NCBI RefSeq assembly: GCF_007845675.1
Contig: NZ_VOBR01000015.1
Location: forward strand, 1-64,000
Length of the DNA stretch: 64,000 nucleotides
Reading direction: 5' to 3'
Source of the DNA: Lentzea tibetensis
GTDB taxonomy: Bacteria > Actinomycetota > Actinomycetes > Mycobacteriales > Pseudonocardiaceae
The stretch's first letter is position 1. Each line of letters starts with the position of its first letter. Below, piece by piece: positions 4,977 to 43,071 of this stretch. The position numbers and the translations under genes are program-made. Below the pieces are notes generated by a model. That model was not told the DNA's origin and did not search any database. It saw nothing but the letters and a program-made list of their open reading frames with translations.

Positions 4977-5012
4977 CGCCGGCGGGCGGGTTCCTCAGTC
5001 CGATGTGGACCT

Positions 5013-17989: not shown

Positions 17990-18598
17990 TCAGCGGTGCA
18001 GCTTCTCCTTGACTGTCTCGACCTTCTCGTCGATCTTGGCGCGGATCTCGGCGCGCTTGCGCTCGCGCAGCACGCGGTTGGCTTCCTTCTGTGCCGCCTC
18101 TGCCGCGGATGCGGCGGCTTCGACCTCTGCGGCGACCTGTGCGGTGGGCTGACGCTCGATGGTCGCGTCGAACCGGGCGGCGAGCTGGTCGAGCGGCTCG
18201 GGGGTGGTCTCGACCGCCTCGACGATCACAACGGTGCTGCCGGGCGTGATCTGCGCGGACAGCAACGCCAGTGCGCCGTCCACACTGGTCGCCCGGTCGA
18301 GGTCGAACACGCCGCCGACCAGGGCGCCGGTGCTGAAGCCGAGCAGCAAGCCCAGCGGGCCGCCCAGCACGCCGAACAGCATGCCGATCAGCCCGCCCGT
18401 GGCGGTACCGGTGCTGATGGTGTCGTCGCTCTGCTCCGGGACGTGCAGAGTGCCATCGGGCCTGCGTTCGGCCACGGCAGCACCGCGCACCTGCAGGCTG
18501 GTGAGGCTCTCGTCCAGGCTCCGCAGTGCGCTCAGTGCCTGGTATGCGTGGCCGGACTCCGGAAAGCGAATGAGGACAACGGATTCGGTGATGGTCAC
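17990..18598 (-). CDS. DUF1269 family protein
   Basis: 202 residues. The DUF1269 core is TESVVLIRFPESGHAYQALS, then a glycine-rich membrane hairpin GTATGGLIGMLFGVLGGPLG (about residues 64-83), followed by TPGSTVVIVEAVE and a long charged coiled coil (about residues 140-202). Function is unknown; relatives associate with the membrane through the glycine-rich hairpin. Its GTG overlaps the depolymerase stop (GTGA) and it is last in the operon. A hairpin-bearing, coiled-coil protein made with PHA enzymes could bind granules like a phasin; that is inference. Confidence 0.75.
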   Translation of the reverse strand: MTITESVVLIRFPESGHAYQALSALRSLDESLTSLQVRGAAVAERRPDGTLHVPEQSDDTISTGTATGGLIGMLFGVLGGPLGLLLGFSTGALVGGVFDLDRATSVDGALALLSAQITPGSTVVIVEAVETTPEPLDQLAARFDATIERQPTAQVAAEVEAAASAAEAAQKEANRVLRERKRAEIRAKIDEKVETVKEKLHR

Positions 18599-19536
18599 AG
18601 GATGTCTCCTTGTCGGTGGGGGATTCTGATGTCCGTCATCAGGACGACGGGGTTGTCGCCGTCAGGCGGACCTGTGCGCGGGTCGCGCGGCTCTGGGGGG
18701 ACAGGTGGAGGTTCAGCACGTCGTTCTCCGTCCGTGAGGAAGTCGTGGATGAGGGGGACGACCTCGTCCGCGTGAGTCAGCAGGGCGAGGTGTCCGCCGC
18801 CGCGCACGATGTGAACGCGGCCGTGCCGCAGCAACCGGGCCATGAGGTGGGCATTGACGGTCGGGATGATCGGGTCGTCGTCGCTCGCTACGAGCAGCAC
18901 CCGCTGCGGCAGCCGAGGCAGGTAGTGGACGCTGGTCCAGCCGACGCTGGCGGCGATCTGCCAGTAGTAGCCGACCGGGTCGGGTGCCCTGGTGTGCATG
19001 GCGAACCGCGCCGCGAAGCCGGGGTCTGAGCCGAACCCGCCGCCGTAGATTCGCCGCCCGGTCTCGTGCATGTGCCGGGGGCCGAAGTAGCGCAACGGGC
19101 TCGCGAGGGTCAGCAGCACCGAGGGCCTCGCGGGGATCATCACCATGCCCATGCTGGTGGCACACAGCACGACCCGGCGGCACAGCGACGGGTTGCGGTA
19201 CGCGAACTCCTGGGCCAGCGCGCCACCCCACGAGATGCCGAGCACGTCGACCTCGTCGTAACCGAGGTCCGTCACCAGGTCGGCCAGCATCCGGGCGAGC
19301 CGCGGCATCCGCCGGGGCAACCGCGTGGCCGGCGAGCCGCCGGCTCCCGGCATGTCGAACCGGATCACCGGTATCCGCCTGCCCGGCCGGGCGCGCAGGT
19401 CGTCGACCACCGGCTGCAGGAGTTCGAGGTTCGCCCCGATGCCGTTGCACAGCAACAGCGGTGTGCCCTCGCCGGGCTGGACGTCGACGTTCAGGCACGT
19501 CCCGTGCACCCATCGCGGCCCGTGGAACGCGTTCAT
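18595..19536 (-). CDS. phaZ: Intracellular poly(3-hydroxyalkanoate) depolymerase-like alpha/beta hydrolase (copy 1)
   Basis: 313 residues, alpha/beta hydrolase of the medium-chain PHA depolymerase type (as in pseudomonad PhaZ). Oxyanion region LLLCNGIGANLELLQPVVD, nucleophile elbow GISWGG (Ser near residue 102), acid in ASDDDPIIPT near 217 and the histidine in RGGGHLALL near 245 are all present. It should release hydroxyacids or hydroxyacyl units from stored polyester in the cytoplasm. A Pro-rich ~45-residue C-terminal tail is absent from the paralogue at 36788. ATG overlaps the PHA synthase stop (ATGA). Confidence 0.82.
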   Translation of the reverse strand: MNAFHGPRWVHGTCLNVDVQPGEGTPLLLCNGIGANLELLQPVVDDLRARPGRRIPVIRFDMPGAGGSPATRLPRRMPRLARMLADLVTDLGYDEVDVLGISWGGALAQEFAYRNPSLCRRVVLCATSMGMVMIPARPSVLLTLASPLRYFGPRHMHETGRRIYGGGFGSDPGFAARFAMHTRAPDPVGYYWQIAASVGWTSVHYLPRLPQRVLLVASDDDPIIPTVNAHLMARLLRHGRVHIVRGGGHLALLTHADEVVPLIHDFLTDGERRAEPPPVPPEPRDPRTGPPDGDNPVVLMTDIRIPHRQGDIL

Positions 19537-21194
19537 CCCAGCACGTAGCTGCCGGGCGCAGCCTCGATCGGGGCGTACCGGCGACTTCCGAGCTTCGCCG
19601 GTGCCGCGACGAGCTCGCCGGACCGCTCAGTGAGCCACTCCACCCAGCGAGGCCACCAGCTCCCGTCCACTTTGGACGAACCGTGCTGCCACTCCTGTAC
19701 CGACTCCGGCCGGTCGGGGTTGACGTAGTAGCTCGCCTTCGAGTTGCTGGGAGGGTTGAGGATGCTCTGGATGTGCCCCGAGTTGCTGAGCGCGAACTCG
19801 ACGTTCCCGCCGAGCCGCTGGGCCGAGCGGTAGCAGGCGTCCCACGGCGTGATGTGGTCGGTCGTGCCTGCCATGACGAACGCGTCCGCGGTGATCTTGC
19901 CGAGGTTCAGTGGTGTGCCGTTGACGACGACCTCGTCCGGGCGGGCGAGGGAGTTGTCGCGGTAGATGTCGATGAGCTGGCCGTGGAACGCGGCGGGCAG
20001 CCGGGTGGTGTCGTTGTTCCAGTACAGGATGTCGAAGGCAGGCGGCCTGTTGCCGAGCAGGTAGTTGTTCACCCAGTAGGTCCAGATGAGATCGTTGGGG
20101 CGCAACAGGTTGAACACCTTGGCGAGGTCGCGCCCGTCGAGCACGCCGCGCACGTGCGAGTGGCGCTTGGCGGCGGCGAGGGTCTCCTCGCTCGCGAACG
20201 CGCCGAGCGGGGTCTTGTCCTCGGCCATGTCGAAGACGCTCACCAACAGAGTCAGCGAGTTGATCACGGGCTTCCCTCGTGCGGTGAGGTGTGCGGCGAG
20301 TGATACCGCTGTGATGCCGCCCGAGCAGGCGCCCGTCAGGTTGACGTCAGGGCTCTTGGTGATCGCGCGGACCGCGTCGATCGCCTCTTCCGTCGCGGTG
20401 AGGTAGGTGGCGAGGTCCCAGTCGCGGTGGTCGGCGGTCGGGTTGTGCCAGCTGATCATGAAGACCTGGAAGCCCATCTCCAGCGCGTACCGGACGAGGC
20501 TCTTCTCCGGTGAGAGGTCGAAGACGTAGAACTTGTTGATCTGCGGGGGTGCGATGAGCAGCGGCCGCGCCTGCACGAGCTTGGTGCGCGGCCGGTACTG
20601 GATGAGCTCCAGCACGTCGTTGCGGAACACCACGGATCCCTCGGTGGTGGCGAGGTTGCCGCCGACGGTGAACTGCTCGGTGTCGACCTGGCTGGGGAAC
20701 GCCCCGTTGTGCCGGAGGTCGCCGACGAAGTGCCGTACGCCTTCCACGGCGCTCTCGCCGCCGGTGTCGATGAACGTCTTGATCGCGGCCGGGTTCACCG
20801 GGAGGTTGCTCGGCGCAACGGCGTCGAGTAGCAGGGACAGCACGAATTTCGCTCGTTCACGGTCCACTGCGGACAGGCCCGTGCCCGCGAGCCAGTCGTC
20901 CAGCTCGGCCTCGGTGGCCAGGTAGACGCCGAGAAGCCTGCGGTAGAGGAAGTTCTGCGTCCATGCGGAATCGGTGAACCGGCGGTCCTTGGCGCCGGGC
21001 GTCAGCGCGCCGCGTCCGCGGACGACGTCGACCGCGGTCGTGGCCAGGTGGCGCAGGCTGCTCGCGGTGTGCGACGGGTGCCGCACGGCCTCGACGACGA
21101 CCGAGCGCAGCGAGTCGACGACGTCCTTGCGCCGGAACCCGACGATGGGATTGGGGCCGCCGACGGCGTCGGCCGCGATCTCGGGGCTGCTCAC
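19533..21194 (-). CDS. phaC: PHA synthase, class II-like (copy 1)
   Basis: 553 residues, the size of class II (medium-chain) PHA synthases, which polymerise hydroxyacyl-CoA. The N-terminal domain contains FTDSAWTQNFLYRRLLGVYL (about 82-101) and PSNLPVNPAAIK; the catalytic domain has the lipase-like box GACSGG with the nucleophilic Cys near residue 287, the Asp in AGTTDHITPW and the His in NSGHIQSILNPP. FYVFDLSPEKSLVRYALEMG is typical. GTG 21194 has a GAGGAG site and overlaps the FAD hydroxylase stop (GTGA). No phaA/phaB genes are nearby, so monomers must come from the ligase or aromatic-degradation steps of the operon. Confidence 0.9.
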   Translation of the reverse strand: MSSPEIAADAVGGPNPIVGFRRKDVVDSLRSVVVEAVRHPSHTASSLRHLATTAVDVVRGRGALTPGAKDRRFTDSAWTQNFLYRRLLGVYLATEAELDDWLAGTGLSAVDRERAKFVLSLLLDAVAPSNLPVNPAAIKTFIDTGGESAVEGVRHFVGDLRHNGAFPSQVDTEQFTVGGNLATTEGSVVFRNDVLELIQYRPRTKLVQARPLLIAPPQINKFYVFDLSPEKSLVRYALEMGFQVFMISWHNPTADHRDWDLATYLTATEEAIDAVRAITKSPDVNLTGACSGGITAVSLAAHLTARGKPVINSLTLLVSVFDMAEDKTPLGAFASEETLAAAKRHSHVRGVLDGRDLAKVFNLLRPNDLIWTYWVNNYLLGNRPPAFDILYWNNDTTRLPAAFHGQLIDIYRDNSLARPDEVVVNGTPLNLGKITADAFVMAGTTDHITPWDACYRSAQRLGGNVEFALSNSGHIQSILNPPSNSKASYYVNPDRPESVQEWQHGSSKVDGSWWPRWVEWLTERSGELVAAPAKLGSRRYAPIEAAPGSYVLG

Positions 21195-22723
21195 GGGCGA
21201 TCTCCTCGGACGAATGCGCCGAAGCGGGGGAGGGTGGCGCAGAGTTCGGTCAGGTCGCGCCCGGCTCGCAGGACCGTGCCGTCCGGCCGGACGACGACGG
21301 CCTGCGCGTGCCCCCGGCGCAGCCAGTGGTGCAGGTCCGTGCCGGCGGGGGCGGCGATGCACAGTCCGCCGCGTCTCTCCGCCTCGGCGTGCTGGGCAGG
21401 GGACGCCGGGCTGGCCGTGATCACGGCGAACCGGCCTGCGACGATCTCGTCGAGGCGACGCCCGTCGTCGAGGGCGGCGTTGGGGCACAGCCGGCCGGCG
21501 AGGGTCCGGCGCAGGCGTGGCCGGACGACGAGGCCGGACCGGTGCAGGGCCGGGGTTTCGCTGTCCAGGACGATCCGGCGAAGGCGGGGCATCCGGGCCA
21601 GCAGAGGCACGACGAGCCGGCGCAGGACGTTGCCGGGTTTGCCGCCTCGAGTCATGGCCGTCCCGATGAGCTTGGCCAGCCCGATCATGGCGTGTGCGTG
21701 CGGCTTGCGTTCGGCCTGGTAGCTGTCCAGCGCGTGCTGCGGCAAGCTGCCGTCGAGCACTCCGGCGAGCTTCCACGCGAGGTTGGCGGCGTCGCGGAGC
21801 CCGGCGCACAGGCCCTGTCCGATGAAGGGGGGTGTCAGGTGGGCGGCGTCGCCGAGCAGGAACAGTCGGCGGTCGCGCCACCGGTCGGCGAGCCGCGCAC
21901 GGAAGGTGTACTCGGCGATCCGGACGATCTCCAGCGCCTCGACCGGAATGTCCCCGGTCCACGGTGCGAGCAGCGGGTGCAGGTGGCCGATGTCGCGGTA
22001 GTCGTCGGCGGTTTCACCCTGGCGGAGGCGGAACTCCCAGCGGTAGCGGTGGCGGCCGACGCGCATGTAGGTCGCGGCCCGGTTCGGGTCGCACACCTGG
22101 TGCACACCCTCCCACTCGCGGAGGTCGGCCTCGGTGGCCACGTCGACCACCAGCCACCGCTGCTCGAACCGCAGATCGTGCATGGTGGCGCCGATCGCGT
22201 CCCGGACCAGGCTGTTGGCTCCGTCGCAGCCCAGGACGTAGTCGGCGAGCACCGAGCCGCGCGTGCCGCTGTCCCGGTCGGTGAAGTCGACCCGGACGGG
22301 TCCGGGGCCGTCCTGTGCGACCGTGGTGACCTCGGTGTTGCACCGCAGCGTGACGGTGGCGTGTCGCTTGAGGTTGGTGCGCAGCAGGCGTTCCAGCTCG
22401 GGCTGGTCGAACATGTTCGCCTCGGGGTAACCGTGCCGCCCGGCTTCAGCGCCGCGCTGGAACTCGGCGAGTACCCGCATGCTCGGGTCGATGAGGCGAA
22501 GACCGTGGCACGGCCACGAGATGGCGGCGAACTCCTCGCGAAGTCCGAGCCGGGCGAGGATGCGGTAGGTCTCGTCGTCCAGGTGCACCGCGCGGGGCTG
22601 CGGGTAGATCGACTCCCATCGGTCCAGAACCAGGCACTCGACACCGTGCTGGGCGAGCAGTGTCGCGGCGGTCATCCCGGTCGGGCCCGCGCCGACCACG
22701 ACCACCGGAACCCGCGGTGTCAC
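21191..22723 (-). CDS. FAD-dependent aromatic hydroxylase (MhpA-like)
   Basis: 510 residues, PF01494-type flavin monooxygenase resembling 3-(3-hydroxyphenyl)propionate hydroxylase. It has the N-terminal FAD motif VVVGAGPTGMTAATLLAQHG, the DG motif VLGCDGANSLVRDAIG near residue 170, and the second FAD motif RLFLLGDAAHLTPPFIGQGL near 280. A ~130-residue C-terminal thioredoxin-like domain follows. It probably uses NAD(P)H and O2 to ortho-hydroxylate a phenolic substrate to a catechol. GTG 22723 overlaps the DoxX stop (GTGA). The neighbouring extradiol dioxygenase would be expected to cleave its product. Confidence 0.85.
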   Translation of the reverse strand: MTPRVPVVVVGAGPTGMTAATLLAQHGVECLVLDRWESIYPQPRAVHLDDETYRILARLGLREEFAAISWPCHGLRLIDPSMRVLAEFQRGAEAGRHGYPEANMFDQPELERLLRTNLKRHATVTLRCNTEVTTVAQDGPGPVRVDFTDRDSGTRGSVLADYVLGCDGANSLVRDAIGATMHDLRFEQRWLVVDVATEADLREWEGVHQVCDPNRAATYMRVGRHRYRWEFRLRQGETADDYRDIGHLHPLLAPWTGDIPVEALEIVRIAEYTFRARLADRWRDRRLFLLGDAAHLTPPFIGQGLCAGLRDAANLAWKLAGVLDGSLPQHALDSYQAERKPHAHAMIGLAKLIGTAMTRGGKPGNVLRRLVVPLLARMPRLRRIVLDSETPALHRSGLVVRPRLRRTLAGRLCPNAALDDGRRLDEIVAGRFAVITASPASPAQHAEAERRGGLCIAAPAGTDLHHWLRRGHAQAVVVRPDGTVLRAGRDLTELCATLPRFGAFVRGDRP

Positions 22724-23073
22724 GACACGGCCTGGAACAGCGCCACCAGGTAGCCGGCGACCAGCACCGCGCACACCAGTGCGGGCGCGAACTTGCGCGG
22801 GCCGTCGCCCTTGCGAAGGTGGGTGATCACGGCCCCGGCGAGCAGGGCCAGCAGGCCCGCACCGGCCAGGCCACCCAGCAGCGGCACGACCGGGCCGAGC
22901 GCCACCCCGATGGCGCCGGCGAGCTCGAGGGTCCCGATGCCGCGGTAAGCCTCGACCGACATCCCAGCCTCGGTGGCCAGTGCGCGCATTGGTGCGAGTG
23001 CGACCACCTTGGCCAGCCCGAGCACGGCGAAGATCAACACGATGACGGCGGCGAGGCCGATGACCAGGTTCAT
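22720..23073 (-). CDS. DoxX family membrane protein
   Basis: 117 residues with four hydrophobic helices: LVIGLAAVIVLIFAVLGLAK, IGTLELAGAIGVALGPVVPL, GLLALLAGAVITHL and FAPALVCAVLVAGYLVALF. Members of the family assist oxidative steps or associate with electron transfer, but the precise role is not established. It lies between the ligase and the hydroxylase with 4-bp overlaps on both sides, so it is part of the same pathway unit. Confidence 0.78.
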   Translation of the reverse strand: MNLVIGLAAVIVLIFAVLGLAKVVALAPMRALATEAGMSVEAYRGIGTLELAGAIGVALGPVVPLLGGLAGAGLLALLAGAVITHLRKGDGPRKFAPALVCAVLVAGYLVALFQAVS

Positions 23074-24914
23074 GAGACTTCCTCGGTGAGTCGGAGGTTC
23101 CAGCGCACGGCGTAGGCGCCGAGCGCGGCTGTTACGGCGGTCTGGTCGCAGGCCGCAGGGATGGTCACCGTCGCGACGACGGAGCCGTCCTCGATGCGCG
23201 TGTCGACCTCGGCTCCCCGGATCGCGGCGAGGGCGTCGGTGACGGCCCGACGGGTGGCGTGGGCGCGCAGGCCGAGCTTGAACGGCTTGCCCACGGCGGT
23301 GACCGGCAGCGCGTCGAGCACCGTGACGGCCTTCGGCACCGCGGCGCGCTCAGGTACACGGGCGGCGGCCCAGGCGAGCAGGTCCTCCTCGGTGACCGAG
23401 GCGCCGGGCACGACGGTCACGTAGACCACCGGCACCTCGCCCGCGTGGATGTCCGGCCGCCCAACCGCCCCAGCGGCGGTGACCTGCGGGTGCGCGAGCA
23501 GCGCGTCCTCGATGAGCGCGGGGTCGATGTTGTGGCCGCCGCGGATGATCAGGTCCTTGGCCCTGCCGGACAGGTGGACGAAGCCCTCGTCGTCGACGTC
23601 GGCGAGGTCACCTGTGTCGAGCCAGCCGTCGACCAGCTTGCCCATGCCGTCCAGCACGTACCCGTCAACGTCGCGGCCGGCGAGGTAGCCGGGGAAGACC
23701 GTCGGCCCGCTGATCATGAGCACGCCGTGAACGACCTTCATGCGTTGATACGGCAGCCGCTGGCCAACGGACCCCGGCCGGGGCGCGTCGGGGAAGCTGC
23801 GCGCGCTGGCGCAGGTGGCTTCGGTGAGGCCGTAGCCCTCGAGCAGCGGGACGCCGGTGTGGCTCTCGAAATTCGCCCGCACGGCGGCGGGCAGGGGGGA
23901 GGCGCCGACCATGGCGAAGCGCAGGCTGCTGATGTCGGCGTCCACCGGTGCCAGGGCGAGCGTGGCGTACACCGTGGGCACCGCGCTCATGGAGGAGATC
24001 CGGTAGTGCTCGACGATCCGCCAGAACTCGGCGAACAGAGAGGGATCGCGGTAGCCCAGCGGCCCGGCCCAGACCACCTGCTGCCCCTTGAACAGTGGCG
24101 CGAGCAGGGTGACCACGAGCGCGTTGACGTGGAAGAGCGGCAGAGCGCCGAAGATGACGGAGTCGGTGTCGAACAGCGAGTTCGCGGCCAGCATCCACGC
24201 GTCGGCGACCTCGTTGCCGTGCGTGTGCGCGGCCAGCTTCGGGGCACCGGTGGTGCCGCCGGTGTGGAAGAACGCGGCGAGGTCGGTGGATTGCGGCGGC
24301 TCGCCCGCGAAGGCGACCGCACCCTCGGCCACGGCCAGCTCGCTGAGGTAGCCAACCCGCACACCGTCCATCACGGGCAGCGGCACCGCGGCGCCGGTGG
24401 CCCCGGTGGGACGCAGGACCAGGATCGCGTCCAGCCCGTCTGCCAGGTGCCGCGCGGCGTACCAGACCTCGGGGGCGAGCTCCGGCCCGGCGGTGATCAG
24501 CACGCGGGCGCCGGACCGGTGGAGCAACTCGGCGATGTGCGACCGGGACAGCGCGCCGTTCACCGGTGCCGCGACGCCCGCCAGCTGTGCGGCCAGGGTC
24601 GCGGTGATCAGCTCGGCGCAGTTCGGCGCGATCAGCGCGACCGCGTCCGCACGCCGAATCCCCAGGCGGCGTAGCAGGTTGGCGTAGCGGTGCACGTCGG
24701 CGAGCAGCTCGGCGAACGTGCGTGATTCCGGCTTCTGCCAGCGGGCGGCCTCGGGCAGCACGGAGATCGCGGTGCGGTCGGGCCAGAGCGTCGCGGCACG
24801 GGTGAGCAACGCGTAGGTCGACTCCGGCAGGCCTCGCTCGGCCAGTGGAACGGCCTCGATCGCGGCCAGATCGGCGGGGGAGTCGTACCGAGGCCAGAGC
24901 AGGTCGGCGCTCAT
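23070..24914 (-). CDS. AMP-dependent acyl-CoA synthetase/ligase
   Basis: 614 residues, ANL superfamily. Signature motifs: phosphate loop FFHTGGTTGAPKLAAHTHGN near residue 205, LLEGYGLTEAT near 350, the hinge GWLDTGDLADVDDEGFVHLS near 437, AKDLIIRGGHNIDPALIED, and a C-terminal lysine in VGKPFKLGLR near 550. It activates a carboxylic acid to its CoA thioester with ATP. In this operon it could activate an aromatic or ring-cleavage acid and thereby supply the PHA synthase; the substrate is inferred. ATG 24914 overlaps the upstream FAH-family stop. Confidence 0.88.
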   Translation of the reverse strand: MSADLLWPRYDSPADLAAIEAVPLAERGLPESTYALLTRAATLWPDRTAISVLPEAARWQKPESRTFAELLADVHRYANLLRRLGIRRADAVALIAPNCAELITATLAAQLAGVAAPVNGALSRSHIAELLHRSGARVLITAGPELAPEVWYAARHLADGLDAILVLRPTGATGAAVPLPVMDGVRVGYLSELAVAEGAVAFAGEPPQSTDLAAFFHTGGTTGAPKLAAHTHGNEVADAWMLAANSLFDTDSVIFGALPLFHVNALVVTLLAPLFKGQQVVWAGPLGYRDPSLFAEFWRIVEHYRISSMSAVPTVYATLALAPVDADISSLRFAMVGASPLPAAVRANFESHTGVPLLEGYGLTEATCASARSFPDAPRPGSVGQRLPYQRMKVVHGVLMISGPTVFPGYLAGRDVDGYVLDGMGKLVDGWLDTGDLADVDDEGFVHLSGRAKDLIIRGGHNIDPALIEDALLAHPQVTAAGAVGRPDIHAGEVPVVYVTVVPGASVTEEDLLAWAAARVPERAAVPKAVTVLDALPVTAVGKPFKLGLRAHATRRAVTDALAAIRGAEVDTRIEDGSVVATVTIPAACDQTAVTAALGAYAVRWNLRLTEEVS

Positions 24915-25861
24915 GTCGAGTACCTCACGACCGTGCGCTGGGCACCGAGGTCGATCGCGCCGTCGCCGGTGGCGACGCCGGCTTCGATGACGTCGCCGTC
25001 GGCCAGGTACTTCGCGTTGCGCGCCTGGCGTTTGAAGAACAGCTTCCACTTCGTCGCCGGCGGCAGCAGCGACCCGATGATCTCCATCGGCTTGGGTGGG
25101 GCCGACAGCGCGGTGCCGGCCGGGGTGCCGGTGAGCACCAGGTCCCCGGCGTCGAGGCGCTGGAAGCGAGCCAGCGCGGTCAGCGCCTGCGCGGGCCGGT
25201 AGATCATGTCGGCGCCGACGGCCATGTCCTGCCGGACCTCGCCGTTGACGGACAGTCGCAGCCGCAAGTCGGTGAACCGTTTGAGCTCGTCGGCGTCCAG
25301 CAGCACCAGGGCGGGGCCGGCCGGGGTGAAGGTCGGATAGGACTTCGACTCGTAGAACTGCGTCTTGGGCAGTTGCAGGTCACGGGCGGAGATGTCGTTG
25401 GTGACCACCAGCCCGGCGACGCAGTCGGCCAGGTCGTCCTCGGTGATCTCGGTGCCCACCGGCAACTCCCTGCCGATGACCAGCCCGATCTCCACCTCGT
25501 AGTCCAGCAGCCGCACGTGGGCGGGCTTGACGACGTCGTCGAACGGCCCGCTGATCGAGCCGGAGGACTTGCGGAAGAAGGTCAGCGGCACGGTCTCGGG
25601 GTTCATCCCGGCGTCTCGGACGTGCGAGGCGTAGTTGGTCATCTGCGCGACCACCCGGCACGGCGCGGTCACCGGGGAGACCAGGTCGAGCGAACCGACC
25701 GGCACGGTGTCGTCGCTCGACGCCGCGGCGCTGATCGCCCGCCGGTCGGCAAGGAGCTTCGCGGTGGTCCGCGCCGTGGTGTCGATCTTGGCGGCGCCGC
25801 GCGGGGTGGTCACGTACCAGGCAGCGTCTTTTCCGGCGGTGCGGAGCACTGAGGTGGTCAT
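24911..25861 (-). CDS. Fumarylacetoacetate hydrolase (FAH) family protein
   Basis: 316 residues with the C-terminal FAH fold. Metal ligands are recognisable in RLLDYEVEIGLVIGRELPVG (E-x-E near residue 125) and in TNDISARDLQ (Asp near 160); YPTFTPAGPALV, GDLVLTGTPAG and YLADGDVIEAGV complete the active-site framework. Enzymes of this family hydrolyse or hydrate keto-enol acids produced by aromatic ring cleavage. It lies directly downstream of the extradiol-type dioxygenase with an ATGA overlap, matching the reaction order. Confidence 0.85.
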   Translation of the reverse strand: MTTSVLRTAGKDAAWYVTTPRGAAKIDTTARTTAKLLADRRAISAAASSDDTVPVGSLDLVSPVTAPCRVVAQMTNYASHVRDAGMNPETVPLTFFRKSSGSISGPFDDVVKPAHVRLLDYEVEIGLVIGRELPVGTEITEDDLADCVAGLVVTNDISARDLQLPKTQFYESKSYPTFTPAGPALVLLDADELKRFTDLRLRLSVNGEVRQDMAVGADMIYRPAQALTALARFQRLDAGDLVLTGTPAGTALSAPPKPMEIIGSLLPPATKWKLFFKRQARNAKYLADGDVIEAGVATGDGAIDLGAQRTVVRYST

Positions 25862-26991
25862 GAGGTGGCTACTTTCAGAAGGCCGCGCAGGCGCTCGAAG
25901 TCGAACTCGTTGTCCTGGCGCAGGGCGTTGACGACGGTGCGGAGTTCCCGCAGTGCCTGGGGGCCCGGCTTGATGCCGAGGAAGTCCTTGGTGGCAGGCG
26001 GACCCCACTGGGCCAGGCCGGAGGCCTTCATCGGCGCCCAGCCGGGGTCGAGGGCGTTGTCGAACAGGTCGCCGTCGCTGAAGTGCTCGACCATGAACCC
26101 GTCCGGGTCGCGCCAGTAGTCGAAGATCTGGCTGCCCTGGATGTGTCTGCCGATGCCCCACGAGTGGTGGTAGCCGTGCTCGCGCAGGTATTCGCCGCCC
26201 GCCGCGAGTGAGTCCAGGTCGGCGACCTGGTAAGCCGAGTGCACGTACCGGTTCGCCGGGCCGAGAGCCAGTGCCAGCGTGTGGTGGTCGGTCGGAGTGG
26301 CGCCGCGGTCGCAGCGGATGAAGCTCATCACCGGACCCCGCTCGCGCTGGCCGGGGTAGTAGAGGAAGTCGCTGACGATCAGCCCGAGGTGCCGCAGGTA
26401 CCAGTCGAGGGTTTCCCGGTACTTGGTCGTCTGCCACACCACGTGCCCGAGCCGCTGCACCCTCGCCGGCTCGCGCACCGGCCGCTGCGCGGCATTGGCC
26501 CGGACGGCGGCGTGGCCGAAGTTGAACGTGAGCGGCTCCTGCGCCGGTTGCGCAGCGAGCTCGTGGGTGTCGGAGACGACGCGCACCCGCAGTCCGCTCG
26601 GGTCGACCAGGTCGACGGCCAGTCCGCCCAGGCTCTCCGGCAGTTTCGCCGCCTTCCGCCCGGTCGCGTCGGCGAGCTTGACCACGTCGGTCGAGTCGGC
26701 GGCACGGAAGGCGGGCCCCACGAACGCCGACCGCCGGCCGCGGCGGATCAGCACACAGGGCGCGCCCAGGTCGGTGCCGCGCAGGTGCAGCTCGTCCACC
26801 GTGCGCACCGATGTGGTGAACCCGAAGGCGTGCGCGAACAACTCAGCCTTGGTCAGGTCGGGCTTCTCGAACTCCAGCCACGCGAGGTCGTGCACCTTGA
26901 CGATCGGGTCGGACACGCGCCCCGGATGCTCGCCCGCCAGGGCGCCCTGCTCGCTGTGCAGGCCGGTGTGGGGGTCGTGGTGGTCGCTCAT
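25858..26991 (-). CDS. Extradiol-type ring-cleavage dioxygenase (VOC superfamily)
   Basis: 377 residues with two vicinal-oxygen-chelate modules. The second module carries the likely Fe(II) triad: His in QRLGHVVWQT near residue 183, His in GYHHSWGIGRH near residue 270-277, and Glu in GFMVEHFSDGD near residue 293. These positions fit catechol 2,3-dioxygenase/2,3-dihydroxybiphenyl dioxygenase-like enzymes. It should cleave a catechol at the meta position with O2. It is first in the eight-gene operon and faces the TetR gene across a 133-bp operator region. Confidence 0.82.
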   Translation of the reverse strand: MSDHHDPHTGLHSEQGALAGEHPGRVSDPIVKVHDLAWLEFEKPDLTKAELFAHAFGFTTSVRTVDELHLRGTDLGAPCVLIRRGRRSAFVGPAFRAADSTDVVKLADATGRKAAKLPESLGGLAVDLVDPSGLRVRVVSDTHELAAQPAQEPLTFNFGHAAVRANAAQRPVREPARVQRLGHVVWQTTKYRETLDWYLRHLGLIVSDFLYYPGQRERGPVMSFIRCDRGATPTDHHTLALALGPANRYVHSAYQVADLDSLAAGGEYLREHGYHHSWGIGRHIQGSQIFDYWRDPDGFMVEHFSDGDLFDNALDPGWAPMKASGLAQWGPPATKDFLGIKPGPQALRELRTVVNALRQDNEFDFERLRGLLKVATS

Positions 26992-27010: not shown

Positions 27011-27076
27011 TGACGAAATCATCACCCCTGACTACATCCTCAGTCAAGACGTTCTGATGAATTCGTCAGTCTTGAC
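27011..27076. promoter_or_regulatory. Twin TetR-type operators between dioxygenase operon and tetR
   Basis: Two 14-bp imperfect palindromes are almost identical when one is reversed: TGACGAAATCATCA at 27011-27024 and TGATGAATTCGTCA at 27055-27068. A further inverted repeat GTCAAGAC (27043-27050) / GTCTTGAC (27069-27076) encloses the second. The first lies 20 bp upstream of the dioxygenase ATG. This is a classic layout for a TetR repressor controlling both divergent transcripts. Confidence 0.7.
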
Positions 27077-27124: not shown

Positions 27125-27781
27125 ATGACGGAGCAGGCGGGCAACCGCGTTGACCGCCGCAAGGCGCGCACCCGTGCGGCCCTTGTCCGCGCTGCTCAGG
27201 CCTGCATCGCGGAGGGCAGGACGACCGTTCCGATCCTGGAGATCACCCAGATCGCCGATGTCGGAATGGGGTCGTTCTACAACTACTTCGAGACGAAGGA
27301 ACAGCTCTTCCAGGCCGCCGTCGAAGATGCCCTCGAGACGTTCGGCGACGCGCTCGACGCCCTCACCGCTGACCTGGACGACCCTGCGGAGGCGTTCGCG
27401 CGCAGCTTCCGGCTCGTCGGGCGGCTGCACCGCAGGCAACCCGAGCTCAGCAAGGTCCTGCTGCACAACGGCCTGGCGCTGGCCGGCTCCGACCAGGGCC
27501 TGGCCCGCCGCGCGCGCCGCGACATCGAAGCGGCCGTGCACGCGGGCAGGTTCGCCGCCGTCCGCGACCTGGATCTTGCTCTCGCCGTCGCCACGGGCGC
27601 GACTCTCACCCTCGGCCAGTTGCTGCACGACCACCCAGACCGTGACGACCTGGAGGCGGCCGACCTCATCACCGAGGACCTGCTCCGCATGTTCGGCGTT
27701 CCCGCCGACGAGGCGCACGACATCTGTCAACGCCCGCTGCCCGACCCGGACGACGTGCCTCGGCGAGACAGCGTCGCCTGA
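27125..27781 (+). CDS. TetR family transcriptional regulator
   Basis: 218 residues. The N-terminal HTH spans RRKARTRAALVRAAQACIAE and ITQIADVGMGSFYNYFETKE (residues ~10-65), with the recognition helix GMGSFYNYF. The C-terminal ligand-binding domain is helical and lacks recognisable ligand residues. Divergent placement and the operators at 27011-27076 make it the likely repressor of the aromatic/PHA operon, responding to a pathway compound or CoA thioester (inference). It is followed by ~145 bp with no recognisable gene before the alkA fragment. Confidence 0.88.
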   Translation: MTEQAGNRVDRRKARTRAALVRAAQACIAEGRTTVPILEITQIADVGMGSFYNYFETKEQLFQAAVEDALETFGDALDALTADLDDPAEAFARSFRLVGRLHRRQPELSKVLLHNGLALAGSDQGLARRARRDIEAAVHAGRFAAVRDLDLALAVATGATLTLGQLLHDHPDRDDLEAADLITEDLLRMFGVPADEAHDICQRPLPDPDDVPRRDSVA

Positions 27782-27927
27782 CTCGGCTACCGCGGGCCGC
27801 TGCCGTCCGCGAGCTTCCGCTGCACGACCGCGGCGCGAGCAGGGACCACTGCTGCAGTGCGGCTGGACCGCCTGCACTTCTTCGACTCGCCGACGGCCGC
27901 CGCATCAGTCCTCGGGTGAGGGCGGCA

Positions 27928-28098
27928 TCAAGGACCAATCTCGTGGGTGCGTTCCTCGCGCAGGGTGCGCAGGTGGACGGCGGCCCAGGTGCGGAACGGC
28001 CGCCATGCCTCGGAGAGTTCGCGGCCGGGGCCGTAGCGCTGGATGATCTCGTCGTCCAGCCTGCGCTCGTGGTGCGGGATCAGGCGCAATTGCTCCGG
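27928..28098 (-). pseudogene. alkA: DNA-3-methyladenine glycosylase 2 (AlkA-like), C-terminal fragment
   Basis: The minus strand from about 28098 to a stop at 27928 encodes EQLRLIPHHERRLDDEI, then RYGPGRELSEAWRPFRTWAA and VHLRTLREERTHEIGP, the conserved final helices of AlkA-type glycosylases (W-R-P-x-R-x-x-A-x-x-H-L). The remainder is replaced at about 28090-28100 by the plus-strand serine recombinase fragment, marking an insertion or deletion breakpoint. Confidence 0.65.
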
Positions 28099-28692
28099 CG
28101 ATCACGAGGGGCGGGCGGCTTCAGCGCAGGGAAGAAGCTGGAAAGAGGCCTGAAGCGGACCAAGCGGGTGTACCCGCTACGTGGGCGGGTGAAGTGCTCG
28201 TATTGCACGCGGCGAATGGAGGGCACGCCGCGCGGTCCTCGGACGTACTACCGCTGTGCCGCGCGAACGATGGTGCCTGGCTCGTCCGCGCTGAAGGGGC
28301 ACCCACCAAACGTGTACCTGCGTGAGGTTGCGGCAATGGACCGGTTCAACAAGTGGATTGATGGACTGTTCGACCGCGCGAACCTCGACAGCACAGTGTC
28401 TGCGCTCGTGGCATCGCAGGACGACGAAAACGCAGGGACGAAAGATCGTGCGGCCGTCAAGAAGCGGCTTGCAGACGCGGAAGGAAAGCTGCGCCGATTC
28501 CAAGACGCCATAGCGGCGGGCGTTGACCCGACAGCGCTGGTCGATGCGATCAACAAGGCACAGGAGCAGCACGCGGCCGCTCAAGCCGAGCTGAACGGGA
28601 CGCCGAGGCGGACCGGGCGGAGTGCGGCCGAGGTGTACGCGATGATCGATTCGCTCGGCGACGTGCCAACGGCAGCCCCGCACAGCATTTGA
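28087..28692 (+). pseudogene. Large serine recombinase, C-terminal fragment (copy 1)
   Basis: The frame encodes AQLLRRSRGAGGFSAGKKLE, YPLRGRVKCSYCTRRMEGTP (first Cys pair of the zinc ribbon), TYYRCAART, and a coiled coil (AAVKKRLADAEGKLRRFQDA) with VDPTALVDAINKAQEQHAAA. This is the recombinase/zinc-ribbon/coiled-coil half of phage-type serine integrases. The N-terminal resolvase catalytic domain is missing. A related copy at 43072-43700 has the same orientation. Its 5' edge is fused to alkA and its 3' edge abuts the truncated NB-ARC gene. Confidence 0.8.
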
Positions 28693-29835: not shown

Positions 29836-30027
29836 CGACCACTGGGGTGCGCGCAGCCACTGCTGTCCTCGGTTTCGCAATCGCCGACGATCGGTCCATC
29901 CGTTACTGGCGGTGGGGCAAAGATCGGTACCTTGCAGGCACTTCACGCGCCGATCGCCTCCGGGAGGTTGGCGCTGGTGCCTGACGGAGGATGTCACGAA
30001 GCGGCGAGCGCGGACGATGGTGACAGG

Positions 30028-34106: not shown

Positions 34107-35297
34107 TCACTTCGCTTTGGTCGCTTTGAGCTTCACGAGCGGTGACTCGAACAGCGGCCGCACGACGGTCAGGCCGCCGGACGCTGCGGAGTCCGGTTTG
34201 CTGAGGTACGACTGCGTGCTCGACGGCCTGCCCGTGTGCGAGAAGTGCAGCGGCGCGGTGATGCCGAGCGTGTCGACGTCGTTCGTGTCGTGGAACGCGC
34301 GCAGCACACCCTCCCTGGTGAGATCGCCCGTGTGACAGGCCTTGTCGAGCACGGCGGTGAACGCGAGCCCGACCGCGTACCCGTCGACGACGGGTCCCGC
34401 CGGCCGCACGTCCGGGTACTTCGCCCGGAACGCCTCGGCGGCGGACCGCGCGCCGGGCACGTCGGCCGACAGCGGCGCGGTGGACGACATCACGAGGACG
34501 CGGCTGTCCGTGATCGCCGGGTCGTAGCCGACGACGTGCACCAGGAAGGGCACGTTCCAGTTCTGCGCCGCGGCGATCGCGAGCTGCGTCTGGCTCGCCG
34601 TCGTCGTGACCACCACCGCCTGGGCCTTGGCCGCTCTGAGTGCGGCGACCTGCGCCGTGACGTCGTTCGTGGTCGCGGTGATCGACTGGGACGCCACTGT
34701 CATCCCGGACTGAGCCGCGAAGAAGGTGGTGCCCTCCAACGCGTTCTCGCCGTAGTCGCCGAGCAGGTGCAGGTGTCCGATCACGGCCCCCTCGCGCAAC
34801 GCGCCTTCCTGGCGGAGGTGGTCGAGGCCGTTGATCACGTCGAGGTCGTAGGTCGTGCCGACGACCATCATGTGCGGATTGCCGAGCAGCGCCGCCGACC
34901 AGGACGCGGGTGCGGCGAGCGCCCTGCTCTGCATGAGGTCCGGACCGATCGCCGCGGTCATCGGCGCGCCGGTGATGTCGAGGAAGCCGAGCACCTGGGG
35001 CTCCAGCTCGAAGTAGGCGGCCATGGCCCGTTCGACGTCGTAGCCGTGGTCGGAGACCCGCAGCACGACCTTCCGCCCGCAGACACCGCCCTTCGCGTTG
35101 AGGTCGGCGACGAACAGTTCGTACCCGGAGGTCCGGGCCGACGCCTGCGCTTTGAAGGGTCCGCTCAGGTCGGACAGCACACCCAGTTCGATCGTGGTGT
35201 CGGAAACCCCCTGGCCCGTGCGGAGGCCGGGTTGGTGGTGCGCGGTCCCGCAGGCGGTCAGCAGCAGGAGACCGGTGAGGACGGTGGCGGCCCTCAC
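34107..35297 (-). CDS. ABC-type substrate-binding lipoprotein (branched-chain amino-acid receptor family)
   Basis: 396 residues. GTG 35297 starts a lipoprotein signal RAATVLTGLLLLTACG with a lipobox LTAC, followed by a type I periplasmic-binding fold (Peripla_BP_6): IELGVLSDLSGPFKAQAS, FVADLNAKGGVCGRKVVLRV, DYGENALEGTTFFAAQ and FHDTNDVDTLGITAPLHFSH. It would capture a small ligand outside the membrane; no permease or ATPase gene is adjacent, so it may be an orphan receptor. GTG overlaps the ligase stop (GTGA). A broken paralogue lies at 32200-32610. Confidence 0.85.
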   Translation of the reverse strand: MRAATVLTGLLLLTACGTAHHQPGLRTGQGVSDTTIELGVLSDLSGPFKAQASARTSGYELFVADLNAKGGVCGRKVVLRVSDHGYDVERAMAAYFELEPQVLGFLDITGAPMTAAIGPDLMQSRALAAPASWSAALLGNPHMMVVGTTYDLDVINGLDHLRQEGALREGAVIGHLHLLGDYGENALEGTTFFAAQSGMTVASQSITATTNDVTAQVAALRAAKAQAVVVTTTASQTQLAIAAAQNWNVPFLVHVVGYDPAITDSRVLVMSSTAPLSADVPGARSAAEAFRAKYPDVRPAGPVVDGYAVGLAFTAVLDKACHTGDLTREGVLRAFHDTNDVDTLGITAPLHFSHTGRPSSTQSYLSKPDSAASGGLTVVRPLFESPLVKLKATKAK

Positions 35298-36775
35298 CGC
35301 AGCTCCCGCTTGAGGATCTTGCCCGTGGCGGTCATCGGCAGGGCGTCGCGGAACTCGACGACGCGCGGGTACTTGTAGCCGGCCATGTTCTCCTTGCACC
35401 ACGCGACGAGCGCGTCCTCGGTCAACGCGGCGTCGGGCTTGCGGATCACATAGGCCTTGACCTCTTCGCCGTGGCTGTCGTGCGGGACACCGACGACCGC
35501 GACCAGGCTCACGCCGGAGTGCGTCATGATCACTTCTTCGAGCTCGCGCGGGTAGACGTTGAACCCGCCGCGCACGATCATGTCCTTGGCCCGGTCGACG
35601 ATGTAGTAGTAGCCGTCGGCGTCGCGGCGGCCGACGTCGCCGGTGCGGAACCAGCCGTCCCTGATCGCCTCGGCCGTGGCGTCATGGCGGCCGAGGTAGC
35701 CCTTCATGACGTTGTGGCCGCGGATGGCGATCTCGCCCGCCTCGCCGTCGGGCACCTCGTTCCAGTCGCCGTCGACCAACTTGAGCTCGATGCCCCACAC
35801 GGGCTGGCCGATCGAGCCGGGCTTCGCTTCGCGGCCGGGGTGGTTGAACGTGGCCACCGGGCTCGTCTCCGACAGGCCGTACCCCTCGCGGATCTCCACG
35901 CCGAAGCTCTCGCGCACCTGCTCGATGATCTCGACGGGAAGAGCGGCGCCGCCCGACACGGCCATGCGCAGGTCGGTGGGGTCGAAGGACGCTTCGGCGT
36001 TCAGCAGACCCCAGTACATGGTCGGCACGCCCGCGAAGAACGTCACCCGCTCCCGTTGCATGGTGGCCAGCGCCTCCGCCGGGTCGAACCGGGGCAGCAG
36101 CACGAGCGTCGCTCCGGCGCCGAAGCCCGCGTTCATCTGCACGGTCTGCCCGAAGGAGTGGAACAGCGGCAGGGTGATCAGGTGCACGTCGTGCTCGACC
36201 ACGCCGAACAGGCGGTGACAGGTCACCGCGTTGAGCACCATGTTGGCGTGCGAGAGCTCCGCGCCCTTCGGTTGCCCGGTGGTGCCGCTGGTGTAGAGGA
36301 TCACCGCGGTGTCGGTCGCCTCGGTCGCGGCGGTCTCGAAGTCGGTGGGCCGGTCGCTCCACGTGTGCGAGTCGATCGCGAAGAGGTGTTCGCAGGACGG
36401 GACGTCGGCGAACCCGGCCCGCCCCTCGGCACCGAGCGGCAGCTCGGCGGTGCCCTCGAAGCAGAAGTACGCCTTCGCTCCCGAGTCCCGCAGGTGGTAG
36501 GCGATCTCCCGGCTCTTCAGCAGCACGTTCAACGGCACCACGACCGCGCCGGCCTTGAGGATTCCGAAGTAGACGATGGGGAAGTGCGGGACGTTGACGC
36601 AGGACACCGCTACGCGGTCGCCGGGGAGCACACCGGAGGCGACGAGCAGGTTCGCGACCTGGTTGGCCGCCGCGTCGACCGCCGCGTAGGACAACCTGGC
36701 GTCGCCGAGCACGACGGCGTCCCGGTCCGGCAGGCGTTGTGCGCTGTCTTCGAGGAGCAGAGCGAGGTTGAGCAC
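35294..36775 (-). CDS. Long-chain fatty-acid-CoA ligase type enzyme
   Basis: 493 residues, ANL superfamily of FadD size. Motifs: VILYTSGTTGQPKGAELSHA near residue 160, REGYGLSETSP near 295, RDGWFRTGDVGRRDADGYYY near 370, AKDMIVRGGFNVYPRELEEV, and MTATGKILKRELR at the C-terminus with the catalytic Lys. It should activate a fatty or other acid to a CoA thioester feeding PHA synthase copy 2. It begins 12 bp after the depolymerase stop. Confidence 0.88.
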   Translation of the reverse strand: MLNLALLLEDSAQRLPDRDAVVLGDARLSYAAVDAAANQVANLLVASGVLPGDRVAVSCVNVPHFPIVYFGILKAGAVVVPLNVLLKSREIAYHLRDSGAKAYFCFEGTAELPLGAEGRAGFADVPSCEHLFAIDSHTWSDRPTDFETAATEATDTAVILYTSGTTGQPKGAELSHANMVLNAVTCHRLFGVVEHDVHLITLPLFHSFGQTVQMNAGFGAGATLVLLPRFDPAEALATMQRERVTFFAGVPTMYWGLLNAEASFDPTDLRMAVSGGAALPVEIIEQVRESFGVEIREGYGLSETSPVATFNHPGREAKPGSIGQPVWGIELKLVDGDWNEVPDGEAGEIAIRGHNVMKGYLGRHDATAEAIRDGWFRTGDVGRRDADGYYYIVDRAKDMIVRGGFNVYPRELEEVIMTHSGVSLVAVVGVPHDSHGEEVKAYVIRKPDAALTEDALVAWCKENMAGYKYPRVVEFRDALPMTATGKILKRELR

Positions 36776-36787
36776 GGCGGATTCCTT

Positions 36788-37582
36788 TCACTCAGCGAGA
36801 AAGCGGTGCACGAGCGGGGCGAGTTCGTCGGCGTGGGTGAGCAGGGCGAGGTGGCCTCCGCCGCGGACGACGTGCAGCGTGCCCTCCCGCAGCAGTCCGG
36901 CCATCAGCCGCGCGTTGACGAGCGGGATGATCGGGTCGTCGTCGCCGGCCACGACCAGCACCGGCTGGCGCAACCGGTGCAGGTAGTGCGCACTGGTCCA
37001 GCCGGCGCCCGCGACGATCTGCCAGTAGTAGCCGCGCACGCCGGGTGCTCTGGTGGCGTTGGCGAAGCGGGCGGCGAGTTCGGGGTCCTGCCCGAACCCG
37101 CCGCCGTATGTCCGCGCGCCGAGGAGCCGCATCCGCGACGGGCGGAAGTACCGCAGGGGACTGGCCAGCGTGAGCAGCACCTCGGGCCTGGCAGGCACCA
37201 TGGCCATGCCCATGCTGGTGGCGCACAGCACGATGCGGCGGCACAGCGCCGGGTTGCGGCGCGCGAACTCCTGCGCCAGCGCACCACCCCAGGAGATGCC
37301 GAGCACGTCGACCTGCTCGTGGCCGAGCCGCCCGACCAGGTCGCGCAGCAGCCCGGCCAGCCAGCGCATCCGGCGAGGCAGCACGGTCGCAGGCGATCCA
37401 CCCGCGCCGGGGACGTCGAACCGGATCGTCGGGACCCGGCGCCCCTGCTGCGCATCGAGCGCGTCCACGAACGGTTCGAGCAGCTCGAGGTTCGCGCCGA
37501 TGCCGTTGCACAGCACCAAAGGAGGCCCTTCCCCCGCTCGGGTGTCGACCATGATCGGGAGAGCGCGCACGCGCATCCTCAT
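36788..37582 (-). CDS. phaZ: PHA depolymerase-like alpha/beta hydrolase (copy 2)
   Basis: 264 residues, strongly similar to 18595-19536: LVLCNGIGANLELLEPFVDA, nucleophile GISWGG near residue 88, GDDDPIIPLVNARLM near 204, and RGGGHLALLTHADE near 233. It lacks the extra Pro-rich tail of copy 1. ATG 37582 overlaps the synthase stop (ATGA), the same arrangement as in the first operon, so the phaC-phaZ pair was duplicated as a unit. Confidence 0.82.
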   Translation of the reverse strand: MRMRVRALPIMVDTRAGEGPPLVLCNGIGANLELLEPFVDALDAQQGRRVPTIRFDVPGAGGSPATVLPRRMRWLAGLLRDLVGRLGHEQVDVLGISWGGALAQEFARRNPALCRRIVLCATSMGMAMVPARPEVLLTLASPLRYFRPSRMRLLGARTYGGGFGQDPELAARFANATRAPGVRGYYWQIVAGAGWTSAHYLHRLRQPVLVVAGDDDPIIPLVNARLMAGLLREGTLHVVRGGGHLALLTHADELAPLVHRFLAE

Positions 37583-39237: not shown

Positions 39238-39275
39238 GCGGCAAAGCTAGAATCCGCCGCTGGTCATGGCCCCTG

Positions 39276-39287
39276 CCTAAAGTTAGG
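39276..39287. promoter_or_regulatory. Dyad CCTAAAGTTAGG in the phaC2/luxR intergenic region
   Basis: A perfect 5-bp inverted repeat (CCTAA/TTAGG, 2-nt spacer) lies in the 59-bp gap between the divergent PHA synthase (start 39237) and regulator (start 39297). Its position 9 bp upstream of the regulator GTG suggests an operator or a promoter element of either gene. Confidence 0.5.
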
Positions 39288-39296
39288 TTTCCAGAC

Positions 39297-43067: not shown

Positions 43068-43071
43068 CGTC

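Follow-up and report, generated by a model that had tools for sequence, protein, structure and literature searches.

Why are genes for the synthesis and breakdown of a storage polyester located at the end of an operon for aromatic ring cleavage? This arrangement occurs in a 64,000-nucleotide stretch of DNA from Lentzea tibetensis (contig NZ_VOBR01000015.1, positions 1 to 64,000), hereafter termed the window, in which eight minus-strand genes with open frames throughout occupy positions 26991-17990. Genes for polyhydroxyalkanoate (PHA) usually occur in clusters of their own. Here, five overlapping catabolic genes reside behind a promoter with two palindromes, and the genes for a PHA synthase (phaC), a PHA depolymerase (phaZ) and a DUF1269-like protein make up the 3' part of the predicted transcript. 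The explanation that we favour, and consider reasonably probable, is that a PHA storage module has been added to a ring-cleavage cassette, and that both are controlled by one TetR-family repressor. The features of this region are as follows, in which CoA denotes coenzyme A and FAD denotes flavin adenine dinucleotide.

25858..26991, minus strand: type I (VOC) extradiol ring-cleavage dioxygenase, 377 amino acids (PF00903, 32.7 bits; cut-off 20.6)
24911..25861, minus strand: FAH-family hydrolase, 316 amino acids (PF01557, 161.7 bits)
23070..24914, minus strand: acyl-CoA ligase (AMP-forming), 614 amino acids (NF005714 PRK07529, 734.2 bits; cut-off 632)
22720..23073, minus strand: DoxX_2 small membrane protein, 117 amino acids, gene 4 (PF13564, 62 bits)
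21191..22723, minus strand: FAD-dependent aromatic hydroxylase (MhpA-like), 510 amino acids, GTG start (NF004829, 627.5 bits; cut-off 390)
19533..21194, minus strand: PHA synthase PhaC1, class-II-like, 553 amino acids, GTG start (TIGR01839, 775.9 bits; cut-off 855.4; C290, D446, H474)
18595..19536, minus strand: intracellular PHA depolymerase PhaZ1 (alpha/beta hydrolase), 313 amino acids (TIGR02240, 248.6 bits; cut-off 250.6)
17990..18598, minus strand: DUF1269-like protein, 202 amino acids, GTG start (PF06897, 22.5 bits, below the cut-off of 26.9)
27125..27781, plus strand: TetR-family regulator (TetR_C_40), divergent, presumed repressor of the operon (PF21306, 81.3 bits; PF00440, 24.8 bits)
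27055..27068, no strand: operator-like palindrome 1, TGATGAATTCGTCA, 0 mismatches to TGAYGAWWTCRTCA; at -77, a conserved position
27011..27024, no strand: operator-like palindrome 2, TGACGAAATCATCA, 0 mismatches; at -33, a conserved position, near the likely -10 element or start site

All seven junctions in the operon are 4-bp overlaps, which in the order of transcription read ATGA, ATGA, ATGA, GTGA, GTGA, ATGA and GTGA (six were scored by script, and the last, between phaZ and the DUF1269-like gene, was read from the sequence). The eight genes are predicted to form a single transcription unit, and the TetR gene starts 133 bp away in the opposite direction. A first-pass annotation, made by a model from the nucleotide sequence alone, had described eight fully overlapping genes with ATGA or GTGA junctions, and this description is borne out. 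Its inventory correctly placed all eight genes, but missed the DoxX_2 identity of the fourth gene, the divergent TetR gene and a second phaC-phaZ pair elsewhere in the window. The same annotation had reasoned that the overlaps would fix the ratios of the gene products; this is not supported, as 4-bp overlaps are common in the cassette and do not set stoichiometry.

The first five genes of the operon are a widespread actinobacterial cassette that is accompanied by a divergent TetR gene. We reduced 148 locus rows to 134 distinct dioxygenase loci, including the window, of which 124 have at least 8 kb of downstream sequence and 10 have less. Near the dioxygenase gene, an FAH hydrolase is encoded at 132 of these 134 loci, an FAD hydroxylase at 125, a TetR protein at 124, a ligase at 84 and a DoxX protein at 51. 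The genera represented among 80 named loci (the best 80 of at least 572 relatives) include Nocardia, Rhodococcus, Amycolatopsis, Micromonospora, Arthrobacter and Nocardioides, among others, and a looser cassette with TetR, dioxygenase, FAH hydrolase and ligase genes resides on a Paraburkholderia plasmid. By a simple rule, 4-bp overlaps join dioxygenase to FAH hydrolase at 118 of 129 scorable loci, FAH hydrolase to ligase at 75 of 80, ligase to DoxX at 33 of 35, and DoxX to hydroxylase at 40 of 40, and they are rarer where intervening genes are missing (ligase/hydroxylase 12 of 34, FAH hydrolase/hydroxylase 30 of 43). Because such overlaps are common throughout the cassette, they say little about the Lentzea operon in particular, and we rejected them as a special mark of it.

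The family assignments make plausible the proposal of the first-pass annotation that hydroxylase, dioxygenase, FAH hydrolase and CoA ligase constitute an aromatic route. Dioxygenase residues H183, H251 and E302 are invariant among 10 homologs and align with His, His and Glu of the structures 2zi8 and 3b59, which we take to be the metal ligands of a 2-His-1-carboxylate site in the C-terminal VOC domain. Because the enzyme has this expected His-His-Glu set, it is likely to open rings. The FAD hydroxylase scores above the cut-off of the subfamily model NF004829 and below those of four equivalog models for MhpA, 3-(3-hydroxyphenyl)propionate hydroxylase (NF004827, NF004828, NF004830 and NF004831), and these scores imply no substrate. 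Its nearest solved structures, rifampin monooxygenase and 2-hydroxybiphenyl 3-monooxygenase (105-101 bits), give no help on the substrate either, and the ligase has no match among solved structures at E 1e-45.

The strongest evidence for a functional link between ring cleavage and storage comes from the distribution of the promoter palindrome, whose strict form is of the TGACGAWWTCGTCA type and whose wider form is TGAYGAWWTCRTCA. In the window, two TGACGAWWTCGTCA-type copies lie approximately 44 bp apart upstream of the dioxygenase gene and around a -35-like TTGACT box (27047-27042), with palindrome 1 directly upstream of this box. When the 200 bp upstream of each operon are searched with up to two mismatches, at least two copies occur at 104 of 133 loci, one at 16 and none at 13, whereas control 200-bp windows placed 1.5 kb into each operon contain the palindrome in 0 of 133 cases. 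Throughout 2.64 Mb of cassette loci, 187 sites (promoters included) match with at most one mismatch, compared with 1, 0, 0 and 0 sites for four scrambled palindromes. Binding of the TetR protein to these palindromes is inferred from their position and conservation.

Copies outside the cassette promoter reveal which other genes might belong to the same regulon. The exact wider form occurs at 20 such sites, versus 0 for each of five scrambled forms, and some of these precede second copies of the cassette (e.g. L065). With the strict form and at most one mismatch, 25 outside sites were recorded, and for 12 of these a reading frame begins close by, while 1 falls within a frame and 12 are without assignment. 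The palindrome is found upstream of phaC in Nocardioides guangzhouensis (L118, exact) and N. ungokensis (L112, one mismatch), upstream of a phasin-like gene in L112, upstream of P450 genes in L054, L186 and L192, and, as judged by eye, before an MMPL-like gene in L084. In L232, a g15 relative, the promoter-like sequence of a DUF1269 homolog carries a site that is exact in the wider form and has two mismatches to the strict form. Ring cleavage and PHA storage thus look co-regulated, because phaC, the phasin-like gene and the DUF1269 homolog carry the cassette's palindrome in these relatives. Another of the assigned sites, exact in the wider form, was observed in Arthrobacter sp. ISL-48 upstream of a gene for a 201-amino-acid protein without a Pfam match, approximately 4 kb from the cassette (L086, 2446-3051).

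The palindrome is scarce elsewhere. The window contains only the two promoter copies and none at its second phaC module, and 19 stretches around phaC genes that lie away from the cassette (L160-L179 without L163) have no site with at most one mismatch. The rest of the Lentzea genome holds one further exact palindrome (G000:C71:11742-11755), approximately 138 bp before a gene for a thiamine-pyrophosphate enzyme, which is possibly a regulon member or a chance match. Seven places with one mismatch were also found in this genome. Four of them fall within reading frames and a fifth has no listed frame; of the other two, one precedes a DUF4360 gene by 52 bp and one lies just beyond the 3' end of a sigma-factor-like gene. 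A reversed-pattern control gave two places.

PHA genes also recur beside the cassette. A phaC gene is found near the dioxygenase gene at 5 of the 134 loci, representing three lineages. It lies downstream of the hydroxylase gene in the window, in Actinomycetospora straminea (L048) and in Pseudonocardia acidicola (L103), and on the other side, beyond the TetR gene, in N. ungokensis and N. guangzhouensis. Approximately 0.11 such loci would be expected, giving P = 2e-4 for three lineages. However, because the window was chosen for showing the link and A. straminea may share the same event, we use a stricter figure of P = 0.006, for two lineages, in which the window's lineage and A. straminea are left out. 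Both values are rough, as the phaC density is drawn from one family (87 rows in 298 family genomes, with a mean genome size of 7 Mb assumed) and the loci from several.

At all three downstream loci, a 4-bp overlap joins phaC to the hydroxylase gene (two scored by script; the third, scored as 'other' by the script's distance rule, was read from the sequence). In A. straminea, genes one to seven follow the order of the Lentzea operon and are joined by six matching 4-bp overlaps, save that one has ATG in place of GTG, and P. acidicola carries a version of the operon with a different synthase. A gene order unique to Lentzea was accordingly rejected. The first-pass annotation knew of no described operon with this gene order, and we found no description of the arrangement among open-licence papers. 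In listings from the same literature, nothing matched on alkylresorcinol or orcinol routes, or on PHA together with TetR and an extradiol dioxygenase.

PhaC1, the window's second synthase PhaC2, the synthases of stand-alone PHA modules and that of A. straminea form one PhaC clade (100/99). The synthases of P. acidicola and N. guangzhouensis belong to another clade, in different parts of it (L112 is outside the tree), from which we infer separate recruitments of PHA genes. In a tree of dioxygenase, FAH hydrolase and hydroxylase from 26 selected loci, two g15 loci fall into a single clade with the window and A. straminea (100/100), and the window and A. straminea are grouped together by PhaZ only (98/96). 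Among the 298 family genomes, phaC occurs in 61 (E 1e-100), the dioxygenase gene in 28 (E 1e-110) and both in 8. In 2 of these 8, the genomes of the window and of A. straminea, the two are neighbours; megabases separate them in G296 (6 Mb) and G339, and in the other 4 they are on different contigs. Two of the recurrent loci have irregular sequences. At 6521-15814 of L112, four genes each match in at least two pieces that lie in different frames, which may reflect sequencing error or decay, and at 10859-11873 of L103, phaZ and an acyl-CoA dehydrogenase gene that follow phaC are truncated, either by real decay or by draft-assembly error.

What kind of polymer might be made? PhaC1 (775.9 bits) and PhaC2 (749.9 bits) fall below the class II cut-off of 855.4 in TIGR01839, yet their class I scores (493.7 and 486.6 bits) are well under their class II scores, and we therefore term both enzymes class-II-like. 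Each has the catalytic triad Cys/Asp/His (C290/D446/H474 in PhaC1, C291/D447/H475 in PhaC2) and carries S, S, Q and L at C+29, H-2, H+2 and H+5, positions that were counted from the catalytic residues and not through alignment to a Pseudomonas enzyme. We presume that the S, S and Q positions are those of the class II residues Ser325, Ser477 and Gln481. Class II synthases have Leu at position 484, where PhaC2 of Cupriavidus JMP134 has Ile (PMC4636328, seen in excerpt). Because both Lentzea synthases carry class-II-type residues, medium-chain 3-hydroxyacyl-CoA monomers would be the simplest expectation, rather than the unusual monomers that the first-pass annotation had thought possible. PhaZ1 is 86% identical to the A. 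straminea enzyme over 271 amino acids and lies two bits under the TIGR02240 cut-off, whereas PhaZ2 (262.6 bits) and the L118 depolymerase (283.8 bits) are above it.

A profile search of the Lentzea genome with PhaC_N returned only two PhaC proteins, both encoded in the window. The second belongs to a separate module, which includes the following features, all outside the operon.

37579..39237, minus strand: second PHA synthase PhaC2 (TIGR01839, 749.9 bits), 70% identical to PhaC1
36788..37582, minus strand: second PHA depolymerase PhaZ2 (TIGR02240, 262.6 bits, above 250.6), 72% identical to PhaZ1
35294..36775, minus strand: long-chain-fatty-acid-type CoA ligase after phaZ2 (NF004837 PRK06187, 486.6 bits; cut-off 476)
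39213..41900, plus strand: MalT/LuxR-type regulator divergent from phaC2 (PF17874, PF00196)

The coordinates of the regulator are those of its longest frame, and comparison with L160 places its true start probably near 39297. The gene order of this module recurs in three stand-alone modules, two from g15 genomes and one from a g19 genome (L160-L162), and PhaC2 and PhaZ2 could be a general copy under a different regulator. The region (39237-32991, minus strand) also encodes a periplasmic-binding-protein-like protein and a DAO-family oxidoreductase.

The DUF1269-like protein that completes the operon has a glycine-rich segment and a charged C-terminal part, as judged by eye. Among 297 other family genomes, one close homolog (70%) was found, in G296, and 16 of the 298 genomes have any match at E 1e-5. 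Both proteins score under the PF06897 gathering threshold of 26.9 bits (22.5 for the window protein, 19.4 for the homolog). The G296 gene adjoins the cassette at a distance of 2 kb and has its own palindrome, while phaC of that genome is elsewhere. We therefore place the DUF1269-like gene with the regulon of the cassette rather than with PHA as such, and rejected it as a standard partner of PHA genes. A different protein is encoded near phaC in L048, L103 and L112: it is helical, 143-151 amino acids long, mutually 52-65% identical and unrelated to DUF1269, with apolipoprotein-like helices that score below cut-off, and it could be a phasin. Neither this protein nor the DUF1269-like protein has a phasin Pfam match, and a gene of the L048 type was found neither in the window nor elsewhere in the Lentzea genome, in a search that had no positive control.

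These observations can be assembled into a mechanism. In response to an aromatic compound, or to a product of its breakdown, the TetR protein would be released, whereupon the FAD hydroxylase might yield a catechol- or trihydroxybenzene-type ring that the extradiol dioxygenase would open. FAH-fold hydrolases split acylpyruvate-like chains, and the enzyme here may cleave such a ring-opening product, and the carboxylic acid so freed would be joined to CoA by the ligase and, as a thioester, enter beta-oxidation. The resulting surge of acyl-CoA could flow off as (R)-3-hydroxyacyl-CoA, in the simplest case a medium-chain one formed through general beta-oxidation, into granules made by PhaC1, from which PhaZ1 would later recover the stored polymer. 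The DUF1269-like protein may act at the granule or the membrane, which is a guess. If storage responded to the same signal as catabolism, CoA and carbon would be buffered whenever aromatic compounds are degraded in a burst. The first-pass annotation had noted that phaA and phaB are absent; this is true of the operon but is not evidence either way, and because no operon gene makes monomer, general fatty-acid enzymes would have to supply it.

On the strength of the recurrence of PHA genes in three lineages and of the palindromes before phaC and the phasin-like gene in Nocardioides, the link between ring cleavage and PHA is probably functional. To this extent the interpretation of the first-pass annotation is supported, but its unusual monomers are not. 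Several points weigh against a shared storage module under one repressor. The contact between TetR and palindrome is inferred, and 13 of 133 loci have no palindrome by the rule used. PHA genes are absent from the examined stretch at 129 of 134 cassette loci, and are hence optional; no genes for monomer supply lie within the operon; phaC, phaZ, ligase and hydroxylase genes of the L112 record all read in broken frames; and phaZ of P. acidicola reads as truncated. Moreover, according to the excerpted source, the class-II-type PhaC2 of Cupriavidus JMP134 prefers short chains, though with Ile in place of the Leu found here, and only the class I phaC1 is involved in PHA synthesis on an aromatic substrate (PMC4636328). 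Because that phaC1 gene resides in another cluster, carbon flow of this kind does not require a phaC gene within an aromatic operon.

Other explanations differ in how closely they bind the polymer to the aromatic substrate. In the most specific of these, which comes nearest to the first-pass annotation, a phenol with an alkyl or phenylalkanoate chain is the substrate of a dedicated route, in which the chain is released, activated by the ligase and polymerised by PhaC1, such that the aromatic compound sets the monomers. The medium-chain-type residues of both synthases fit such a route, as does the ligase match near 84 of the 134 cassettes, although 50 loci lack one (some are cut by contig ends). 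The P450 genes near the cassette give divided testimony. P450s of the BM3/CYP102 type are often active on fatty acids, and a P450-reductase fusion related to them has palindromes upstream in L054, which suggests a substrate with chains. This fusion gene was observed 1.9 kb from the cassette of Thermoactinospora rubra (4871-8095), and similar-sized fusions occur near 7 loci. However, a different P450 family is encoded near the cassette more often (22 loci). The representative of this family is a relative of CYP199A4, and two members that share 64-66% identity with the representative have the palindrome (L186, L192). Because CYP199A4 acts on para-substituted benzoates, these enzymes speak for aromatic acids without long chains and suggest para-substituted aromatic acids as substrates. 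An external parallel for a side chain is HcdB of Pseudomonas mandelii, which opens trihydroxyphenylpropionate; in the excerpted source, a subsequent hydrolase step to succinate is suggested by the authors, with products not identified there (PMC6222606). On balance, we regard the side-chain route as doubtful. We are equally hesitant about the fullest version of the proposal, a TetR-sensed aromatic-to-polyester pathway that runs from one promoter with aromatic-set monomers, and in which Actinobacteria assembled the link at least three times, either through fusion into an operon (Lentzea/Actinomycetospora and P. acidicola) or through palindromes placed before phaC and a phasin-like gene (Nocardioides).

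At the opposite extreme, mobile DNA could have placed phaC-phaZ behind a catabolic operon by chance, with co-transcription that has no metabolic meaning. Recombinase zinc-ribbon fragments are present at 27916-28692 and 43015-43746 (plus strand), similar to each other and one beside each PHA region, which suggests that site-specific recombination brought in or rearranged the segment. Directly downstream of the operon, a frame-broken transposase- or integrase-like sequence was noted by eye at approximately 17.15-17.55 kb (Pfam found nothing in a 64-amino-acid piece), and PhaC homologs occur in only 1 of 25 Lentzea genomes (0 of the 24 others). Nevertheless, the neighbourhood recurs in three lineages with synthases from another PhaC clade in P. 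acidicola and N. guangzhouensis, the Nocardioides phaC and phasin-like genes have palindrome copies of their own, and in Lentzea and A. straminea neither overlaps nor frames are disrupted, so that an accidental fusion appears improbable. Least credible of all is a mainly protective role, in which PhaC1 and PhaZ1 sequester toxic acyl-CoA or free CoA during phenol degradation and storage is secondary. The co-encoded PhaZ fits the cycling of PHA between synthesis and breakdown that is generally known, but, its unexplained DoxX_2 and DUF1269 proteins aside, the operon gives no hint of detoxification. As a separate observation, a 718-amino-acid protein encoded near a recombinase fragment (29932-32088, plus strand) matches NACHT/AAA_16 weakly, below cut-off, and as judged by eye has likely membrane segments.

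Several lineages of Actinobacteria thus appear to have wired storage, at the transcriptional level and by two genetic solutions, to a single route of aromatic catabolism. If this is true, the system would allow direct tests of carbon storage that is specific to a substrate, and would offer a candidate biosensor composed of the TetR protein and its palindrome, and possible enzymes for the conversion of plant or lignin phenols to medium-chain polyester in Gram-positive bacteria.

Parts of this architecture resemble known systems. The hcdABC operon of P. mandelii 7HK4, for 7-hydroxycoumarin, likewise combines a flavin hydroxylase, an extradiol dioxygenase and a putative hydrolase that act on a hydroxylated phenylpropionate, but it has three genes, and the excerpted source mentions no ligase, DoxX, TetR or PHA genes (PMC6222606; compared by layout alone). 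The fde genes for naringenin in Herbaspirillum and the ifc genes for isoflavones in Variovorax also pair an FAD hydroxylase with a glyoxalase-type dioxygenase on a phenolic ring; these systems are proteobacterial, and PHA genes are not mentioned in the excerpts of either source, with the term polyhydroxy not occurring in the ifc paper (PMC8552027, PMC11069340; layout alone). Closer on the storage side is the phaZ-phaP-phaC2-phaJ-fadE cluster of the aromatic degrader Cupriavidus pinatubonensis JMP134, in which phaZ, a phasin and an acyl-CoA dehydrogenase accompany a single class-II-type synthase, but which, as far as the excerpted source describes it, is not joined to a ring-cleavage operon and encodes a short-chain enzyme with Ile at 484 instead of the Leu found here (PMC4636328). 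The PHA genes beside the A. straminea cassette are a similar set.

The closest PhaC relatives that we found (78-81% identity to PhaC1) are encoded in the Pseudonocardiaceae modules L160-L162, which are ordered MalT-(acyl-CoA dehydrogenase)-phaC-phaZ-ligase. Their layout is that of the second Lentzea module except for the acyl-CoA dehydrogenase gene before phaC, and the overlap of phaC and phaZ is already present in L160; unlike the operon, these modules are not linked to ring cleavage. The PHA cluster of Pseudomonas is ordered phaC1-phaZ-phaC2-phaD-phaF-phaI. As in Lentzea, a class-II-like synthase is followed there by a TIGR02240-type depolymerase, but the synthase-phaZ-synthase layout (PMC4636328, in excerpt) differs from the one synthase per cluster of Lentzea, where no phaD, phaF or phaI was seen and where a 4-bp overlap fuses the synthase gene to catabolic genes. 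The components of the Lentzea operon were known already, and the wiring between ring cleavage and PHA is, as far as we are aware, the new part.

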